Positions 52,155-59,319 of a stretch of 64,000 bases of DNA are shown here, piece after piece. The translations under genes were made by a program, and so were the position numbers. The notes below the pieces were generated by a model, which worked only from the letters and a program-made list of their open reading frames with translations, was not told the DNA's origin and did not search any database. Source of the stretch: Psychrobium sp. MM17-31 (GTDB lineage: Bacteria; Pseudomonadota; Gammaproteobacteria; Enterobacterales; Psychrobiaceae); the NCBI RefSeq assembly GCF_022347785.1, contig NZ_JAKRGA010000006.1, positions 124,001 to 188,000 on the forward strand, given 5' to 3'. How positions within the stretch are numbered: position 1 is the stretch's first letter; each line of letters starts with the position of its first letter.

Positions 52155-53612
52155 TTGCCAGTGTTAAATAATACATACGCCGTCATTGATTTAGGCTCAA
52201 ATAGTTTTCACATGAAGATTGTTGAAATGGTTGCGGGAGAGCCTCGTGTCATTTCGAAAGTAAAACGCAAAGTGCGCTTGGCTTCAGGGCTAGATAACAA
52301 CAATGTGTTAAGTCTTGAAGCGATGGAGCGTGGTTGGGAGTGTTTGGCATGGTTTGGCGAGCATTTATCTGAACTCGAATTATCACGTGTTAAAGTCGTG
52401 GCGACTGCGACCTTGCGTTTAGCAGTTAATGCCGATGAATTTACTGCTCGTGGTAATGAACTATTGGGTGTGCCAATTAACATCATTAGCGGTGAACGTG
52501 AAGCTGCCTTGATTTATCACGGGATGGCGGTAACGAGTAATGGTTGTGGTAAGCGACTAATTATAGATATCGGTGGTGCCAGTACCGAACTGATTTTGGG
52601 GGATGGCGTTACGCCAATTGTCCTTAATAGCTTAAATATGGGTTGCGTAACTTGGCTTGAACGCTACTTTGGCAATGGCTTGTTAACAGACAATAACTTT
52701 GATGCAGCCATTGCTGGTGCGAAAGAAGTATTAGCACCTGTGCAAGCTGATTATCTCGCTCATTCGTGGCAACTGACACTAGGCGCGTCAGGCTCTGTAC
52801 AAGCTGTGCAAGAGGTATTAGTGGCACAAGGCCTTAATGAAGAAGTGACCTTGGCAAAGCTGCAACAGTTGAAAAGCCAGTGTATTGAATGTGGCTCACA
52901 AGATAGTCTGCTTATCGAAGGGCTTAAGCCCGAGCGCAGAGTGGTGTTTGTCAGTGGCTTATGCATCTTAATTGCATTGTTCGAAGAGTTGGCTATTACG
53001 ACTATGCTGGCATCGGGTGGTGCGCTGCGCGAAGGGGTTATTAATCAATTAAGCGGCGGAGAACAACAAGAAGATATTTGTCTTGCCAGCTGTCAATCGG
53101 TCGCACAGCGTTTTCAGCTTAATTCACTACAATCACAGCAGGTTGCCCAAGTAGCCCTAAAATTTGCTAGTGACATTGAGCTCGCTGATACGTTATTACC
53201 CATGCTGAAATACAGCGCACTGTTGCATGAGGTTGGTGTTAGCGTTGATTATGCACAAGCGCCCAAACACGCTCGTTATTTATTATCTCATTTGCCACTT
53301 GCAGGCTTTAGTAAACAGCAACGACTTTTATTAGTCGCCTTGGTGGGAAACTATCGCGGCAATATCGATGTCGAGTTACTCAAAGCACAAGGCTGTTGCA
53401 GCTTTGATGAAGCCAATAAACTCTTGTTGTGCCTACGTCTTGCGGTTATTTGCGTTGGTCGTTATCAGGGCCAACGCTGTCAGCAATTGAAGCTTGCTCC
53501 AACTGAGCAAGGCTTTGTACTTGAGCAAACTTCGCAATTATTTGAACAAGCGCCGTTATTAAAAACGATGCTCAATCAAGAAATAGCTGATAATCCATTA
53601 ATGATTAGTTAA
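52155..53612 (+). CDS. gppA: guanosine-5'-triphosphate,3'-diphosphate pyrophosphatase (Ppx/GppA)
   Basis: 485 residues (E. coli GppA 494). An actin-like ATPase-fold phosphatase: IDLGSNSFHMKIVE near the N-terminus, TATLRLA, SGEREAALIYHG, IDIGGASTELILG, and the C-terminal helical domain. It converts pppGpp to ppGpp and may also act on polyphosphate. The start is TTG at 52155 with AAGGA six bases upstream. The gppA name rests on the rhlB-gppA neighbourhood. Its 3' end overlaps the convergent YeeZ-like gene by 15 bases. Confidence 0.92.
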   Translation: MPVLNNTYAVIDLGSNSFHMKIVEMVAGEPRVISKVKRKVRLASGLDNNNVLSLEAMERGWECLAWFGEHLSELELSRVKVVATATLRLAVNADEFTARGNELLGVPINIISGEREAALIYHGMAVTSNGCGKRLIIDIGGASTELILGDGVTPIVLNSLNMGCVTWLERYFGNGLLTDNNFDAAIAGAKEVLAPVQADYLAHSWQLTLGASGSVQAVQEVLVAQGLNEEVTLAKLQQLKSQCIECGSQDSLLIEGLKPERRVVFVSGLCILIALFEELAITTMLASGGALREGVINQLSGGEQQEDICLASCQSVAQRFQLNSLQSQQVAQVALKFASDIELADTLLPMLKYSALLHEVGVSVDYAQAPKHARYLLSHLPLAGFSKQQRLLLVALVGNYRGNIDVELLKAQGCCSFDEANKLLLCLRLAVICVGRYQGQRCQQLKLAPTEQGFVLEQTSQLFEQAPLLKTMLNQEIADNPLMIS

Positions 53613-54398
53613 CCACTTCAGTAAGTCTGGATATTGGTAATGGTATTGCAAACGGTCAGCACTTAGCTGGCCGTTTATGGTTTTAGCAGCTTGATCCTGA
53701 TTTGAAAATTGCGGTGGCGTTAATCCGAGAGTTTGAGCGGCGGTAGAATAAAACTCTTGGCGAGTCGGATGGGTTGGCGCACAAGCAATAAAGCTTTGTT
53801 GCCAACATGCTTGGCTGATGATCTGACTGATGATACCAATAACATCTTCTTTCGCGACTAAGTTTACTGGTGCATTTGGGTTGGCGACATCGCTTTTCCC
53901 CGCTAAAAATCGACCTGGATTGCGGTCATTACCAATCAGCCCCGCAAGATGAATAGTTGTTGCTTTGAACGCTGGCTCTAGTTGCAATGCTGTTTCAAAC
54001 TTGACCATTGCTTGCGCCGATTGAGTCACTGGTTGACGCGGCGTATTTTCATCAACAATACCTTCATAATTTCCCCACACTGATGTTGAGCTGGTAAACA
54101 GCAATTTGGTTATTCCCTTTGTAATTGCCAATTGCTGCAAAGTGATTAGCTGCGGCAAATAATTTTCCGGTGCTTTGCGGTTTGGTGGGATTGTAATAAT
54201 CATGACATCAAAATCATCACCAATACTGGCTAAACTTTCGTTATCGTCGGTGTTAAGCAATTGCATAGGCACTTCTGAAGAACCAATTTTTTCACAATTG
54301 GTCGTCGTTGCTGTCACTTTATGCCCTTGCTGTATCAGGCTTTTTGCTAATGGTAATCCGAGCCATCCACTGCCGATAATTAAAATGTTATGAGTCAT
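53598..54398 (-). CDS. NAD(P)-binding SDR-like protein (YeeZ family)
   Basis: 266 residues. The N-terminal Rossmann motif is IIGSGWLGLPLAKSLIQQGH. The extended-SDR pattern continues with TSSTSVWGNYEG in place of the usual catalytic YxxxK, and IHLAGLIGNDRNPGRFLAG. The family resembles E. coli YeeZ, of uncertain activity. The start lies 14 bases from the inverted repeat that holds the arg operators, so its promoter region is shared with argC and may also be ArgR-controlled. Confidence 0.85.
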   Translation of the reverse strand: MTHNILIIGSGWLGLPLAKSLIQQGHKVTATTTNCEKIGSSEVPMQLLNTDDNESLASIGDDFDVMIITIPPNRKAPENYLPQLITLQQLAITKGITKLLFTSSTSVWGNYEGIVDENTPRQPVTQSAQAMVKFETALQLEPAFKATTIHLAGLIGNDRNPGRFLAGKSDVANPNAPVNLVAKEDVIGIISQIISQACWQQSFIACAPTHPTRQEFYSTAAQTLGLTPPQFSNQDQAAKTINGQLSADRLQYHYQYPDLLKWLTNH

Positions 54399-54412: not shown

Positions 54413-54447
54413 AAAATATTTATGCAGTAAAGTTGCATAAATATTTT
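54413..54447. promoter_or_regulatory. paired ARG boxes (ArgR operator)
   Basis: Perfect 14-bp inverted arms AAAATATTTATGCA (54413-54426) and TGCATAAATATTTT (54434-54447) with 7 bases between them. Arm centres are 21 bp apart, the spacing of the tandem 18-bp ARG boxes with 3-bp gap bound by one ArgR hexamer. Each arm fits the TG-N-ATA-N-WTATT pattern of an ARG box. It overlaps the putative argC -35 element. Confidence 0.75.
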
Positions 54448-54460
54448 GCTTGGTTATACT
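54433..54460 (+). promoter_or_regulatory. putative argC promoter
   Basis: -10 TATACT (54455-54460) with weak -35 TTGCAT (54433-54438), spacer 16. The -35 lies inside the second ARG box, so ArgR binding would block RNA polymerase. Start of transcription near 54467 is expected. Confidence 0.6.
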
Positions 54461-54484
54461 GAATGTGTTGGCAATATTGCCTTA

Positions 54485-54556
54485 ATGAACGATGAAAGAC
54501 TGGCAATGAACCAATATATCTCTCAAATGAAGTATACCCTTAACCGACGACGATAA
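54485..54556 (+). CDS. putative arginine leader peptide upstream of argC
   Basis: 23-residue ORF from ATG 54485 to TAA 54554-54556. In-frame ATGs at 54506 and 54527 give shorter forms (16 and 9 residues). It ends NRRR-stop using three successive CGA codons (54545-54553), and a further AGA lies at codon 5. These CGA codons form the 5' arm of a hairpin (54543-54579). Position after the ArgR-controlled promoter and before argC suggests an attenuator leader. No strong Shine-Dalgarno is visible, and I know of no described arg leader peptide in this group, so this is a candidate. Confidence 0.45.
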   Translation: MNDERLAMNQYISQMKYTLNRRR

Positions 54557-54586
54557 GCAGCTTTGTTTTTCTCGTCGGTCTTTTCT
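54543..54586 (+). terminator. putative arg attenuator hairpin
   Basis: Arms ACCGACGA (54543-54550) and TCGTCGGT (54572-54579), loop of 21 bases, followed by CTTTTCT. The stem is GC-rich and the U run weak. The 5' arm coincides with the Arg codons of the short ORF, so a ribosome stalled there would prevent folding. Confidence 0.45.
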
Positions 54587-54641
54587 GCTGACTCCCCGTT
54601 TTTACACAATCTAAATTTCGAACTTAAGTGAATCTATTGAT

Positions 54642-55640
54642 ATGATTAATATAGCAATTATTGGTGCTAGTGGTTATACAGGCGCCCAAATGTGTCAGCT
54701 TATTGCTGAACACCCGTCGTTAAACCTCACAGGCCTTTATGTGTCTGAAAATAGCTTGGACAAGGGCAAGCGCATCGATGAGTTGTATCCTCACTTGAGT
54801 CATTGCGTTAGTGAATCGCTCACCGCGCTAACTCAACAAGCATTTGAAGATATTTATGCAAATAATGATGCTGTCGCATTGGCGACTAGCCATGAAGTCA
54901 GCCACGATATTGCCGCACAGTTATTAAATGCAGGCCTTAGTGTGTTTGATTTATCTGGCGCGTTTCGTTTTAAAGAAGGTAAATACATCAACCAGTATTA
55001 CGGTTTTGAACATCAATTCCCTGACCTACTGCAACAAGCAGAATATGGTCTTGCAGAATGGAACGCCTCTGCCATTAAATCATCGAAATTAATCGCGGTT
55101 CCCGGCTGTTATCCAACAGCGTCTTTATTGGCGCTAAAACCACTGCAAAGCAATAACTTTTTAGATGAACGTCAATGGCCAGTGATTAACGCGGCTAGTG
55201 GTGTTACTGGCGCTGGCCGTAAAGCAACAATGACCAATAGTTTTTGCGAAGTTAGCCTAACTCCATACGGGGTATTAGGTCATCGTCATCAGCCGGAAAT
55301 TGCAACCCAACTTGGTGCTCAGGTTATCTTTACGCCGCATTTGGGGAATTTTAAGCGTGGTATTCTGGCCACTATCACTGCGAAATTAAAAGTAGGTGTC
55401 ACAGAGCGTGATATAGCCGCTGCATTTGATTGCTATAAAGATGCAACTCACGTCAGATTGCGCGGCAATGTTTGGCCCAAGATTGATGACGTTGCTAATA
55501 CGCCATTTTGCGACATTGCATGGAAATATGATCCTGCCAGTGGCCATATTGTGGTTGCTAGCGCTATTGATAACTTACTTAAAGGCGCCGCAGGACAGGG
55601 TCTACAATGTATAGAAATTCACTTTGGATTGGGAGCCTAA
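54642..55640 (+). CDS. argC: N-acetyl-gamma-glutamyl-phosphate reductase
   Basis: 332 residues (E. coli 334). N-terminal NADP-binding [14 protein letters not shown], catalytic Cys in [13 protein letters not shown], and [16 protein letters not shown] and [11 protein letters not shown]. It reduces acetylglutamyl phosphate to the semialdehyde, the third step of arginine synthesis. It is the first enzyme gene of argCBF-argH(A); ARG boxes and a possible attenuator precede it. Confidence 0.96.
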
Positions 55641-55645
55641 TTTAA

Positions 55646-56416
55646 ATGCAACCTTTGGTGATCAAAGTCGGTGGTGCGCTACTTGATTCCGTGGTCGAAA
55701 AAGCTAAGTTATTCGAGACTATTGCTACATTGGCTAAGCAAGATATTGCGGTAATTCTAGTGCACGGCGGCGGCTGTTTAGTCGATGAATGGATTAATGC
55801 CGTGGGATTGGAAAATCAAAAGCTGGATGGTTTAAGAGTCACGCCAAAGTCACAAATTGGTTTGGTGTCAGGCGCCTTAGCTGGCGCGGCAAATAAACAA
55901 TTAGTCGCTAATGCGAAATTGGCGGCTGTCAATGCCGTTGGCCTGAGTTTATGTGATGGTAACAGCGTGAAAGCCAGTTATCTCGACCCGCAATTAGGCC
56001 AAGTTGGAACTTGCGAAATTGGTGATGCTGCACTGGTTAACACGCTATTAGCGACTGGCTTTACGCCTTTTATCGCTTCTATTGCCGATGATGGCGAAGG
56101 TCGACTACTTAACGTTAACGCCGATCAAGCGGCGCAAGTTATTGCGCAACTGGTGGGTGGCAAGCTTATTTTATTATCTGATGTGCCGGGGGTTTTGGAC
56201 GCGGATAAGCAGCTGATTAAACAGCTAACGCCAACACATGCTAACGCATTGATAGCGCAAGGCGTTATTGCTGGCGGCATGAAGGTGAAAGTAGCAACAG
56301 CTTTTGAAACAGCGAAAGCTTTAGATGGCTCTATTGTGATTGCTAGCTGGAAACAACCTGATGATTTACTCGCTTTTGCCACTGGCGGCACTTGCGGCAC
56401 AACGATTGAACCCTGA
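55646..56416 (+). CDS. argB: acetylglutamate kinase
   Basis: 256 residues (E. coli 258). Amino-acid kinase fold with IKVGGALLDS, ILVHGGGCLVDEWI, SGALAGAANKQLV, NVNADQAAQVIAQLV and GGMKVKVATAFE. It phosphorylates N-acetylglutamate, the second step. It starts 5 bases after argC. Confidence 0.96.
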   Translation: MQPLVIKVGGALLDSVVEKAKLFETIATLAKQDIAVILVHGGGCLVDEWINAVGLENQKLDGLRVTPKSQIGLVSGALAGAANKQLVANAKLAAVNAVGLSLCDGNSVKASYLDPQLGQVGTCEIGDAALVNTLLATGFTPFIASIADDGEGRLLNVNADQAAQVIAQLVGGKLILLSDVPGVLDADKQLIKQLTPTHANALIAQGVIAGGMKVKVATAFETAKALDGSIVIASWKQPDDLLAFATGGTCGTTIEP

Positions 56417-56433
56417 AATAGGACTTCGAACAA

Positions 56434-57348
56434 ATGAACAAATTAGAACACTTTTTAACTATTAAAGATTTAACGCAGTCGCAATTTTTGGCGCTAATTG
56501 ATTTGGCCAAAGATGTTAAAGCTAATCCTGCTAAATATTCACAGACGTTGGCGGGTAAAAGCATTGTTACCTTGTACGAGAAGCAAAGCCTGCGTACACG
56601 AGTGACTTTTGATATTGGTATTGCAAAGTTAGGTGGCCATAGCGTTTATTTAGATCAGAATAATGGCGCATTAGGTAAACGTGAATCTGTAGCCGATTTT
56701 GCTAAGAATATTTCGTGCTGGGCTGATGGCATTGTAGCTCGTACCTTTAGCCATCAAACTTGTGAAGAACTAGCACAGGCGGGCACTGTTCCTGTGGTTA
56801 ATTCACTTAGTGATATGTATCACCCGTGCCAAGGTATGGCGGACTTTTTAAGTTTGGCAGAAAAGTTTGATGACTTGAGCAAAATCAAACTCGCTTATAT
56901 CGGAGACGGTAATAATGTCACGCATTCGTTGATGTTTGCAGCGGCGTTGTGTGGCAGTGATATGGTTGTGGTTTGTCCACAAGGCTGCTTCCCAGATGGT
57001 CAAGTTGTATTAGAAGCGCAGGCCATCGCTGAGCAACATGGTGGTACGCTAACGCTGAGTTGCGATCCGCAAGCGGCAAAAGGTGCAGATGCTATCTATA
57101 CTGATACCTGGATTTCGATGGGAGATGATGTAAGTTATGACGATATCAAAGATAAATTCGCGCCATATCAGGTTAATGAATCAATGATGAGCGATTTAGG
57201 TATTGGTTACTTTATGCATTGTCAGCCTGCGCATATCGATCAAGAAGTTACCCAAGCGGTATTTGATGGCGAGCAGTCTCTGGTGTTGAGACAAGCGGAA
57301 AATCGCATGCACGCACAAAACGCAGTGTTAATTACTTTACTCGGCTAA
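56434..57348 (+). CDS. argF: ornithine carbamoyltransferase
   Basis: 304 residues. The carbamoyl-phosphate motif reads SLRTRVTF where E. coli has STRTRVSF, and the ornithine-site HCLP motif reads HCQPAH. The domain-linking HPCQGMADF is typical, as is the C-terminal ENRMHAQNAVL. It makes citrulline from ornithine and carbamoyl phosphate. The same variants occur, from memory, in Shewanella ArgF, so this is probably a lineage feature rather than a different substrate. It starts 17 bases after argB; argG, which often follows, is absent. Confidence 0.9.
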   Translation: MNKLEHFLTIKDLTQSQFLALIDLAKDVKANPAKYSQTLAGKSIVTLYEKQSLRTRVTFDIGIAKLGGHSVYLDQNNGALGKRESVADFAKNISCWADGIVARTFSHQTCEELAQAGTVPVVNSLSDMYHPCQGMADFLSLAEKFDDLSKIKLAYIGDGNNVTHSLMFAAALCGSDMVVVCPQGCFPDGQVVLEAQAIAEQHGGTLTLSCDPQAAKGADAIYTDTWISMGDDVSYDDIKDKFAPYQVNESMMSDLGIGYFMHCQPAHIDQEVTQAVFDGEQSLVLRQAENRMHAQNAVLITLLG

Positions 57349-57384
57349 CTCAACGACAACAATTATTATTTGAGAGGACTATTC

Positions 57385-59319
57385 ATGGCGGCATTATGGG
57401 GTGGCAGATTCACCGAAGCGGCAGATGACAGATTTAAGAAGTTTAATGACTCACTACGCTTTGATTATCGCTTAGCAAAACAAGATATTATTGGCTCAAT
57501 CAGCTGGTCGCGTGCCTTGGCACAAGTTGATGTATTAACGACGCAGGAGCAACAATCGCTTGAGGCGGCGTTAAACGAACTCGCTGAAGAGGTTGCTAAA
57601 GATCCCGAACAGATATTGCAAAGTGACGCCGAAGATATTCACAGTTTTGTTGAATCTAAGCTAATTGAAAAAGTCGGTGATTTAGGCAAAAAGCTGCACA
57701 CAGGGCGCAGCCGTAACGACCAAGTAGCCACCGATTTAAAACTGTGGTGTAAAGAGCAGTCTATTGAACTCTGTGAATTGATTGTTCGCTTGCAACAAGC
57801 GTTGTTAGATTTAGCACAACGTGAACAGTCGACAGTTATGCCGGGTTATACCCACCTACAACGCGCGCAACCAATTAGTTTTGGTCATTGGTGCCTCGCT
57901 TACGTTGAAATGTTTGATCGCGATTTAAGCCGCTTACGCGATACGACCGAGCGCTTCGACCGTTGTCCACTAGGCTCTGGCGCTCTCGCAGGTACTGCTT
58001 ATCCAATTGATCGTCATGCGCTGGCACGTGATTTAGGCTTCAAACAAGCCACTCAAAACAGCCTTGATGCGGTATCTGATCGCGACCACGTGGTTGAGCT
58101 TTTATCGGATGCCAGTATGTCGATGATGCATTTATCGCGCATGGCAGAAGATTTAATTTTCTATAACTCAGGTGAAGCGGGCTTTATTGAACTAGCAGAT
58201 AATGTGACTTCTGGTTCATCGTTAATGCCACAAAAGAAAAATCCCGATGCGCTAGAGTTAATCCGCGGTAAAACAGGCCGTGTATTTGGTGCATTAAGTG
58301 GCATCATGATGACCTTAAAAGCCTTGCCGCTTGCATACAACAAAGACATGCAGGAAGACAAAGAAGGCATTTTCGACGCGCTGGATAACTGGGGCGATTG
58401 TCTGGAAATGATGGCAATGGTACTGCAAGGTCTTAAAACGAATAAGCCTCGCATGTTGGCCGCAGCGCAACAAGGTTATGCCAATGCCACAGAGCTCGCG
58501 GATTATTTGGTATCGAAAGATATTCCGTTTAGGGAAGCGCATCATATCGTCGGTGAAGTTGTTGTGTCGGCTATTTCTCGTCAGCTAGCGCTGGAAGATT
58601 TCACGCTTGAGCAGTTAAAAGAGTTTTCTGATGTTATTGAGTCAGATGTCTATCAGCATCTCACCATTGATGCTTGTTTGGCTAAGCGCGAAGTGCTTGG
58701 TGGTACTTCATTAGCCAGCGTAATGTCTGCTCTTGAAGAGCAACAAACTGACCTATCTGAAGGGGCTATTGCCGCCGAGGTTGTGGGTAGTACTAGTGGT
58801 GAGCAGGTGCAAAACGCAATGGGTACGGTGCAGTTGCGTATTAATGCGCATAAAGCTGAATTGCGTAATGTCCGCCCAGCGAAATTATCAGATGTTGACG
58901 ATATTACTCGTATTGTTAATTACTGGGCTGAGCAAGGCGATAGTTTACCGCGTTCGCGTTTCGATGTGCTTAACAGCATTTTAGACTTCTCAGTGGTAAG
59001 TAATGAAGACAGTGTTGTCGGTTGTGCTTCACTTTATATTTACGGTACAGGCTTAGCAGAAATTCGCTCGACGGGTATCGATAAGGAACATCAAGGTAGT
59101 GGCTATGGCCGTGCATTAGTCGATCACATGCTATTACGCGCTCAAGAATTGGATTTAGAGCGAGTTATCGTGTTGACCCGTGTTCCAGAGTTCTTTGCTA
59201 AACATGGTTTTGCACAAATCGATAAAGAGAGCTTACCTGAAAAAGTCATTAAGGATGGTGAAGGATACTTGGTTGCTGAACCTAGCGATGAGGTGGCGAT
59301 GGAGTTTCGCGGTAGCTAA
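57385..59319 (+). CDS. argH: argininosuccinate lyase fused to N-acetylglutamate synthase, ArgH(A)
   Basis: 644 residues from the ATG at 57385, with GAGAGGA upstream; a start at 57370 is less likely because it would overlap that site. Residues 1-460 are argininosuccinate lyase ([19 protein letters not shown], the fumarase signature [12 protein letters not shown]). Residues about 485-644 are a GNAT acetyltransferase ([34 protein letters not shown]). The fusion joins the last and first steps of arginine synthesis and is a known marker of Vibrio/Moritella/Alteromonas relatives. It ends the arg operon. Confidence 0.95.

Follow-up and report, generated by a model that had tools for sequence, protein, structure and literature searches.

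Attenuators of the his, thr, leu, ilv, trp and phe operons share one plan: a short open reading frame (ORF) in which codons for the end product stand in tandem, a position between promoter and operon, and a terminator hairpin. Control codons can be rare ones, like the CUA codons of leuL, and in this they resemble the rare CGA codons of the leader described here. A leader peptide of the arginine pathway, the fungal arginine attenuator peptide, acts in eukaryotic translation by nascent-chain arrest. To our knowledge, gammaproteobacterial arginine biosynthesis is taught as ArgR repression only.

Tandem arginine codons are at work in the speF leader of Salmonella and its relatives. Two consecutive rare Arg codons in its leader ORF (ORF34, encoding SpeFL) report the arginine supply, and rare and frequent Arg codons act alike there (PMC6386406). 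Arg pairs containing CGA strongly slow the ribosome on the Salmonella his leader, with de-attenuation of the his operon as the result (PMC4046918). The cys and trp leader peptides of Actinobacteria are, like the present one, finds of comparative genomics, some of them without obvious terminators; for arginine operons of this group the same survey describes no conserved control by RNA, and it lists arginine T-boxes elsewhere (PMC1262725).

The argC locus of Psychrobium sp.

The window, i.e., the whole analysed stretch of 64,000 nucleotides, contains an arginine operon that starts with argC, followed by argB, argF and an argH-argA fusion (argCBF-argHA; Table 1). The fusion gene (57370-59319) joins argH to an argA-like acetyltransferase domain (NF008964). 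It follows argF with no argG between them.

The genome encodes ArgR (PF01316), which presumably binds the palindrome ahead of argC. Words of the ArgR box (TGCATA, GCATAA and TTGCAT) rank among the hexamers with the strongest enrichment ahead of argC in 74 genera. The TATACT further downstream is probably the -10 element, with transcription expected to start near 54467; a strict promoter scan missed it. This leaves a leader of about 175 bases ahead of argC.

Table 1. Features of the argC leader region and operon (positions in the window)
Feature	Position	Strand	Remarks
Divergent gene	53598-54398	-	Upstream of the argC intergenic stretch
ArgR-box-like palindrome, TTATGCAGTAAAGTTGCATAA core	54418-54445	+	Overlaps presumed -35 region; read directly
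Probable -10 element, TATACT	54455-54460	+	Read directly; GGTTATA(C/T)T kept across the genus
Leader ORF, MNQYISQMKYTLNRRR, 16 codons + TAA	54506-54556	+	Length and Arg-codon end same in 10/10 congeners
Hairpin 5' arm, ACCGACGA	54543-54550	+	Made by the Arg codons; terminator-like
Control codons, CGA CGA CGA	54545-54553 (54545-54547, 54548-54550, 54551-54553)	+	TAA at 54554-54556
Hairpin 3' arm, TCGTCGGT	54572-54579	+	Core GTCGG invariant in 10 congeners (alignment), though non-coding
U-rich tail, CTTTTC	54580-54585	+	TTTTTT in L013 and L014; lost in L015
argC, N-acetyl-gamma-glutamyl-phosphate reductase	54642-55640	+	TIGR01850, 361.5 bits (cut-off 233.6)
argB, argF, argH(A) fusion (operon remainder)	55646-59319	+	TIGR00761, NF011380, NF008964 above cut-off

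An earlier note on this sequence had claimed a short ORF between the ArgR-controlled promoter and argC, ending in three CGA codons and TAA. This ORF is present, with its end at 54545-54556. The start at 54485 did not hold: an ATG at this position would open a 23-codon ORF with the same end, but it is not conserved, and the frame is closed by stops in four congeners (L007, L009, L010 and L012). All ten Psychrobium genomes keep the in-frame ATG at 54506, which opens a 16-residue peptide in each; the peptides include MNQYISQMKYTLNRRR, MNQYLSVIKYTFNRQR, MSHFISLSKHTFNRRR, MNQFISFIEQPFYRRR, MNQLLSVIENPLYRRR, MSQFISSNQAPPLRRR, MTQYISSYHVRPLRRR and MIQVISSYHATPSRRR. The Arg-codon run reads CGACGACGA in nine genomes and CGACAACGA in the tenth. 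As the note had also stated, the ribosome binding site is weak in the Psychrobium sp. genome. CGA makes up 10.5% of the Arg codons in the window, and the 12-mer CGACGACGATAR has a single occurrence in the whole 4.17-Mb genome, the argC leader. The comparison of these sequences strongly supports the leader ORF and its control codons.

The other genomic CGACGACGA sites (31 in all) yielded no second arg leader; most of them lie in long ORFs, in another frame.

The hairpin and its U tail

A hairpin with the Arg codons as its 5' arm, and a weak U run behind it, had likewise been predicted, and both were recovered. The arms lie at 54543-54550 and 54572-54579, and the region 54538-54600 folds with -17.7 kcal/mol (z -3.18), a stability that 1 of 200 shuffles equals. 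The U-rich tail, nearly invariant in the genus, is CTTTTC in this genome, two congeners having six U residues. Because its loop limit is 8, a simple terminator scan misses the hairpin of Psychrobium sp. Across the genus, terminators of -12 kcal/mol or better were found in seven of ten genomes, against 1.0 in shuffles, and in eight of ten at -8 kcal/mol or better. As the 5' arm overlaps the CGA codons, masking by a ribosome is geometrically possible.

Covariation in the stem, which the note had named as a source of support, did not appear: pair counts in the ten congeners gave no compensatory change. Covariation therefore argues neither for the stem nor against it. An AGCAG/CTGCT pairing just 3' of the leader stop (54557-54588) was also considered and discarded, since the genus does not conserve it.

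Distribution of the leader in the order

The order-wide sample covered the upstream regions of 156 argC loci, drawn from 74 genera in 18 families. Families and genera carry numeric labels; the names Shewanella-like (f6), Alteromonadaceae-like (f7) and Vibrio-like (f21) are inferred. The leader is found in all ten Psychrobium genomes (one with CGACAACGA), in 18 of 22 f6, 35 of 56 f7 and 4 of 4 f13 genomes, and also in f2 (5/6), f16 (5/5), f25 (2/6) and f11 (1/2). It was not found in the argC upstream regions of f21, f12, f10, f18, f9, f3 and f20, nor in those of 12 f27 genomes; the Vibrio-like and Enterobacteriaceae-like families are without it in the regions examined. Conservation in relatives had been set as a test beforehand, and the tandem CGA proved to be kept, in frame, throughout Psychrobium and in another seven families. 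Judged from these alignments, at least eight families share a conserved, putative arginine leader peptide ahead of the argC operon.

Three Shewanella-like loci (L051, L058 and L045) carry a degraded leader, e.g., CTGCAGCGTTAA where others have CTGCGACGATAA, which suggests loss in some of these genomes.

RNA structures in other families

In the Alteromonadaceae-like family, 36 of 56 regions reach the -12 kcal/mol level in the terminator scan, compared with 19.9 in shuffles. The strong intrinsic terminators start about 27-46 nt past the first CGA, as in CACTTTTTACCTTTG...CAAAGGTAAAAAGTG ATTTTTTT. An extra helix is formed between a segment about 20 nt 5' of the Arg codons and a segment directly 5' of the terminator. 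This bracketing helix has -10.1 kcal/mol, against -8.4 when arms are swapped between genera and -6.4 in shuffles, and its paired changes include TGCTATGC/GCATAGCA, GGCTATGC/GCATAGCC, CGCTAC/GTAGCG and GCTACG/CGTAGC. One further genus of this family (L125) repeats the Psychrobium design, with CGACGACGA...TCGTCG CTTTTTTT.

A classical antiterminator arrangement is seen in g97 (L133 and L137, f7), in which AGGTCTG just past the stop can pair with AGACCT/CAGACCT in the terminator arm. In f7 folds of the RNA that lies beyond a ribosome halted at the first CGA, antiterminator pairing was of textbook form in g97 and no better than shuffles in most others, and a general f7 antiterminator was rejected.

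Several further elements were observed. A C-rich stretch, e.g., TCCCTGCCTTGCTATGC (S-L-P-C-Y-A), lies about 20 nt 5' of the Arg codons at near-fixed spacing in twelve f7 loci (L074, L127, L128, L130, L139, L142, L159 and L079-L083); the bracketing helix explains half of it, and the TCTCCC/TCCCTG part is left unexplained by the helix. In f6 (L016 and L036-L039), a conserved hairpin like TTAGACG-TCCCC-CGTCTAA, without a U tract, follows 10-35 nt past the leader stop; its CGTC could alternatively pair with the Arg codons. In f16 (L245, L246 and L035), GC-rich hairpins that overlap each other (CCGGG...CCCGG and GCCTGC...GCAGGC) and have no U run behind them lie 3' of the leader stop, as if built for a switch other than intrinsic termination.

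In most leaders of f6, f13, f2 and f16 the terminator is weak or absent, the terminator scan being little or no better than shuffles. A single terminator-based mechanism would thus not cover all families. Where U-tract hairpins are missing, if not more widely, the same stalling on Arg codons might instead act through Rho-dependent termination, on RNA stability or on the translation of argC. These four families do keep CGA CGA, the f16 hairpins lack a U run, and in the speF leader of Salmonella, Rho and RNase G act alongside tandem Arg codons (PMC6386406). We consider this alternative output unlikely, given the U-tract hairpin directly downstream in Psychrobium and in many f7 genera.

Leader peptides and codon choice

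The leader peptides of the order (MKINMCNFAVKSNIPIINKNFLRR, MNISCLCPDYKLTSNNFLRR, MHTLKLRR, MSTTIRR, MVMTFLPQLRRR, MNRFSWFRRDSI and MKTNFSHNSRRRSHL are examples) diverge between families outside the Arg pair, f7 sharing in addition an S-x-P-x-Y-A stretch. The Arg-Arg position ranges from 0 to 15 codons ahead of the stop: the CGA CGA pair is the exact end of the leader in 30 of 75 cases, and one more codon follows in 21 of 75. In Psychrobium and the Shewanella-like leaders, Arg-Arg is the last residue pair preceding the stop. The Arg pair of these ORFs is written as CGACGA 95 times, and as any other dicodon at most three times. In the arg genes of f1, f6 and f7, the families with the best sampling, CGA accounts for 7-17% of the Arg codons.

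The pair at the very end of many leaders would suit an Arg-rich nascent chain that arrests the ribosome on free arginine or a polyamine, like TnaC or the fungal peptide. Such a sensor is improbable here: the upstream peptide is not conserved between families, Arg-Arg may stand up to 15 codons ahead of the stop, and selection appears to act on the codon CGA, not merely on arginine.

Enrichment and reading frame

Hexamers were counted in the -220 to -30 region of argC, one locus per genus, and compared with dinucleotide shuffles. CGACGA is the most enriched one, with 28 genera against 1.06 expected, ahead of TGCATA and TTGCAT. None of the 28 argC upstream regions sampled from the class outside this order has it there. 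It reads Arg-Arg, in an ATG ORF ending before argC, in 75 of its 77 occurrences, the other frames giving 8 and 7. Related genomes are not independent of one another, but a count by genus still gives 31 of 32 against 5 and 7. This frame bias and the near-exclusive use of CGACGA despite low CGA usage indicate that both the leader reading frame and the CGA codon appear to be under selection.

The very strict conservation at the nucleotide level might also be expected of a protein-binding motif in RNA or DNA, the Arg-Arg reading being incidental. This is highly improbable in view of the frame counts and of the length of the Shewanella-like leaders, which varies by multiples of three. Least credible of all is chance, with ArgR, whose gene and box are both present and whose box stands without a leader in several families, as the sole control and the short ORF and hairpin as incidental, against the enrichment, the frame and the genus-wide conservation of the CGACGA leader.

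Proposed mechanism

The best reading is a ribosome-mediated arginine attenuator of argCBF-argHA, downstream of an ArgR-controlled promoter, to which we assign a probability of about 0.68. It agrees with the earlier note, whose arginine-codon attenuator is supported by the in-frame conservation of CGA and by the terminators in Psychrobium and many f7 genera. Translation, stalling, termination and the arginine response are inferred from the sequence.

The leader transcript would encode a 16-residue peptide ending in Arg-Arg-Arg, each residue specified by the rare, slowly read CGA. With plentiful arginyl-tRNA, the ribosome would pass the CGA codons and exit at TAA; the Arg codons could then pair with the downstream TCGTCGG, and the hairpin with its U tail would terminate transcription ahead of argC. 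When arginyl-tRNA is short, the ribosome would halt on the CGA run, cover the 5' arm and block the hairpin, and argC would be transcribed. In this minimal switch the starvation codons would themselves be the terminator arm, a single ribosome position deciding the outcome with no antiterminator. In Alteromonadaceae-like relatives the CGA-CGA leader is combined with a strong terminator of its own, some 30-40 nt further on, and with a helix bracketing the Arg codons; an alternative pairing into the terminator arm is clearest in g97, where a stall on CGA would free the antiterminator.

CGA is a reasonable control codon because Arg pairs containing it delay the ribosome on the his leader (PMC4046918). 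The speF leader is indifferent to the rarity of its Arg codons (PMC6386406), so the strict use of CGA in argC leaders needs its own explanation. Against the attenuator stands the U run, short in Psychrobium and lost in the congener L015. Since a ribosome that lingers at UAA would hide the 5' arm as well, termination would need fast release or a pause of RNA polymerase. Whether these leaders form one order-wide class of CGA-locked arginine attenuators, with Psychrobium as the minimal switch and other families rewired to different outputs, we hold to be an even bet.

If true, the arginine pathway would gain charged-tRNA sensing in eight families, Shewanella-like and Alteromonas-like bacteria apparently among them. 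Because nearly all Arg-Arg pairs have been kept as CGA by selection, the leaders would also be a natural test, at the codon level, of theories on which synonymous codon is the best reporter of starvation. The Psychrobium leader would be a compact natural design, its control codons and terminator arm being identical nucleotides.

Comparison with known systems

Rfam gave no match above the gathering score in the window region, and none at E 0.5 in 20 relatives. A study of Shewanella cis-RNAs mentions arginine for speA only (PMC2659441), and argC and arginine are absent from the main text of the attenuation survey by Naville and Gautheret (PMC2965389). No earlier description of an argC attenuator was found in the open literature, which the search covered. 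Novelty is for this reason likely rather than certain: leader attenuation of argC in Gammaproteobacteria is likely new, while its kind, ribosome-mediated attenuation, is known.

The fungal arginine attenuator peptide is unrelated in sequence to the argC leader peptides and has no terminator. The speF leader controls ornithine decarboxylase through Rho, RNase G and translation, whereas the argC leader would control arginine synthesis; SpeFL has a conserved HIRRT...HIMM core, whereas the argC leader peptides are not conserved between families (PMC6386406). This core is absent from the argC leader peptides, which precede argC and not speF. In comparison with the his, thr, leu, ilv, trp and phe leaders, the argC leader would sense arginine, nearly always through CGA, and would be layered on ArgR. 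It differs from them further in Psychrobium, where the control codons form the 5' arm of the terminator and no antiterminator is evident.
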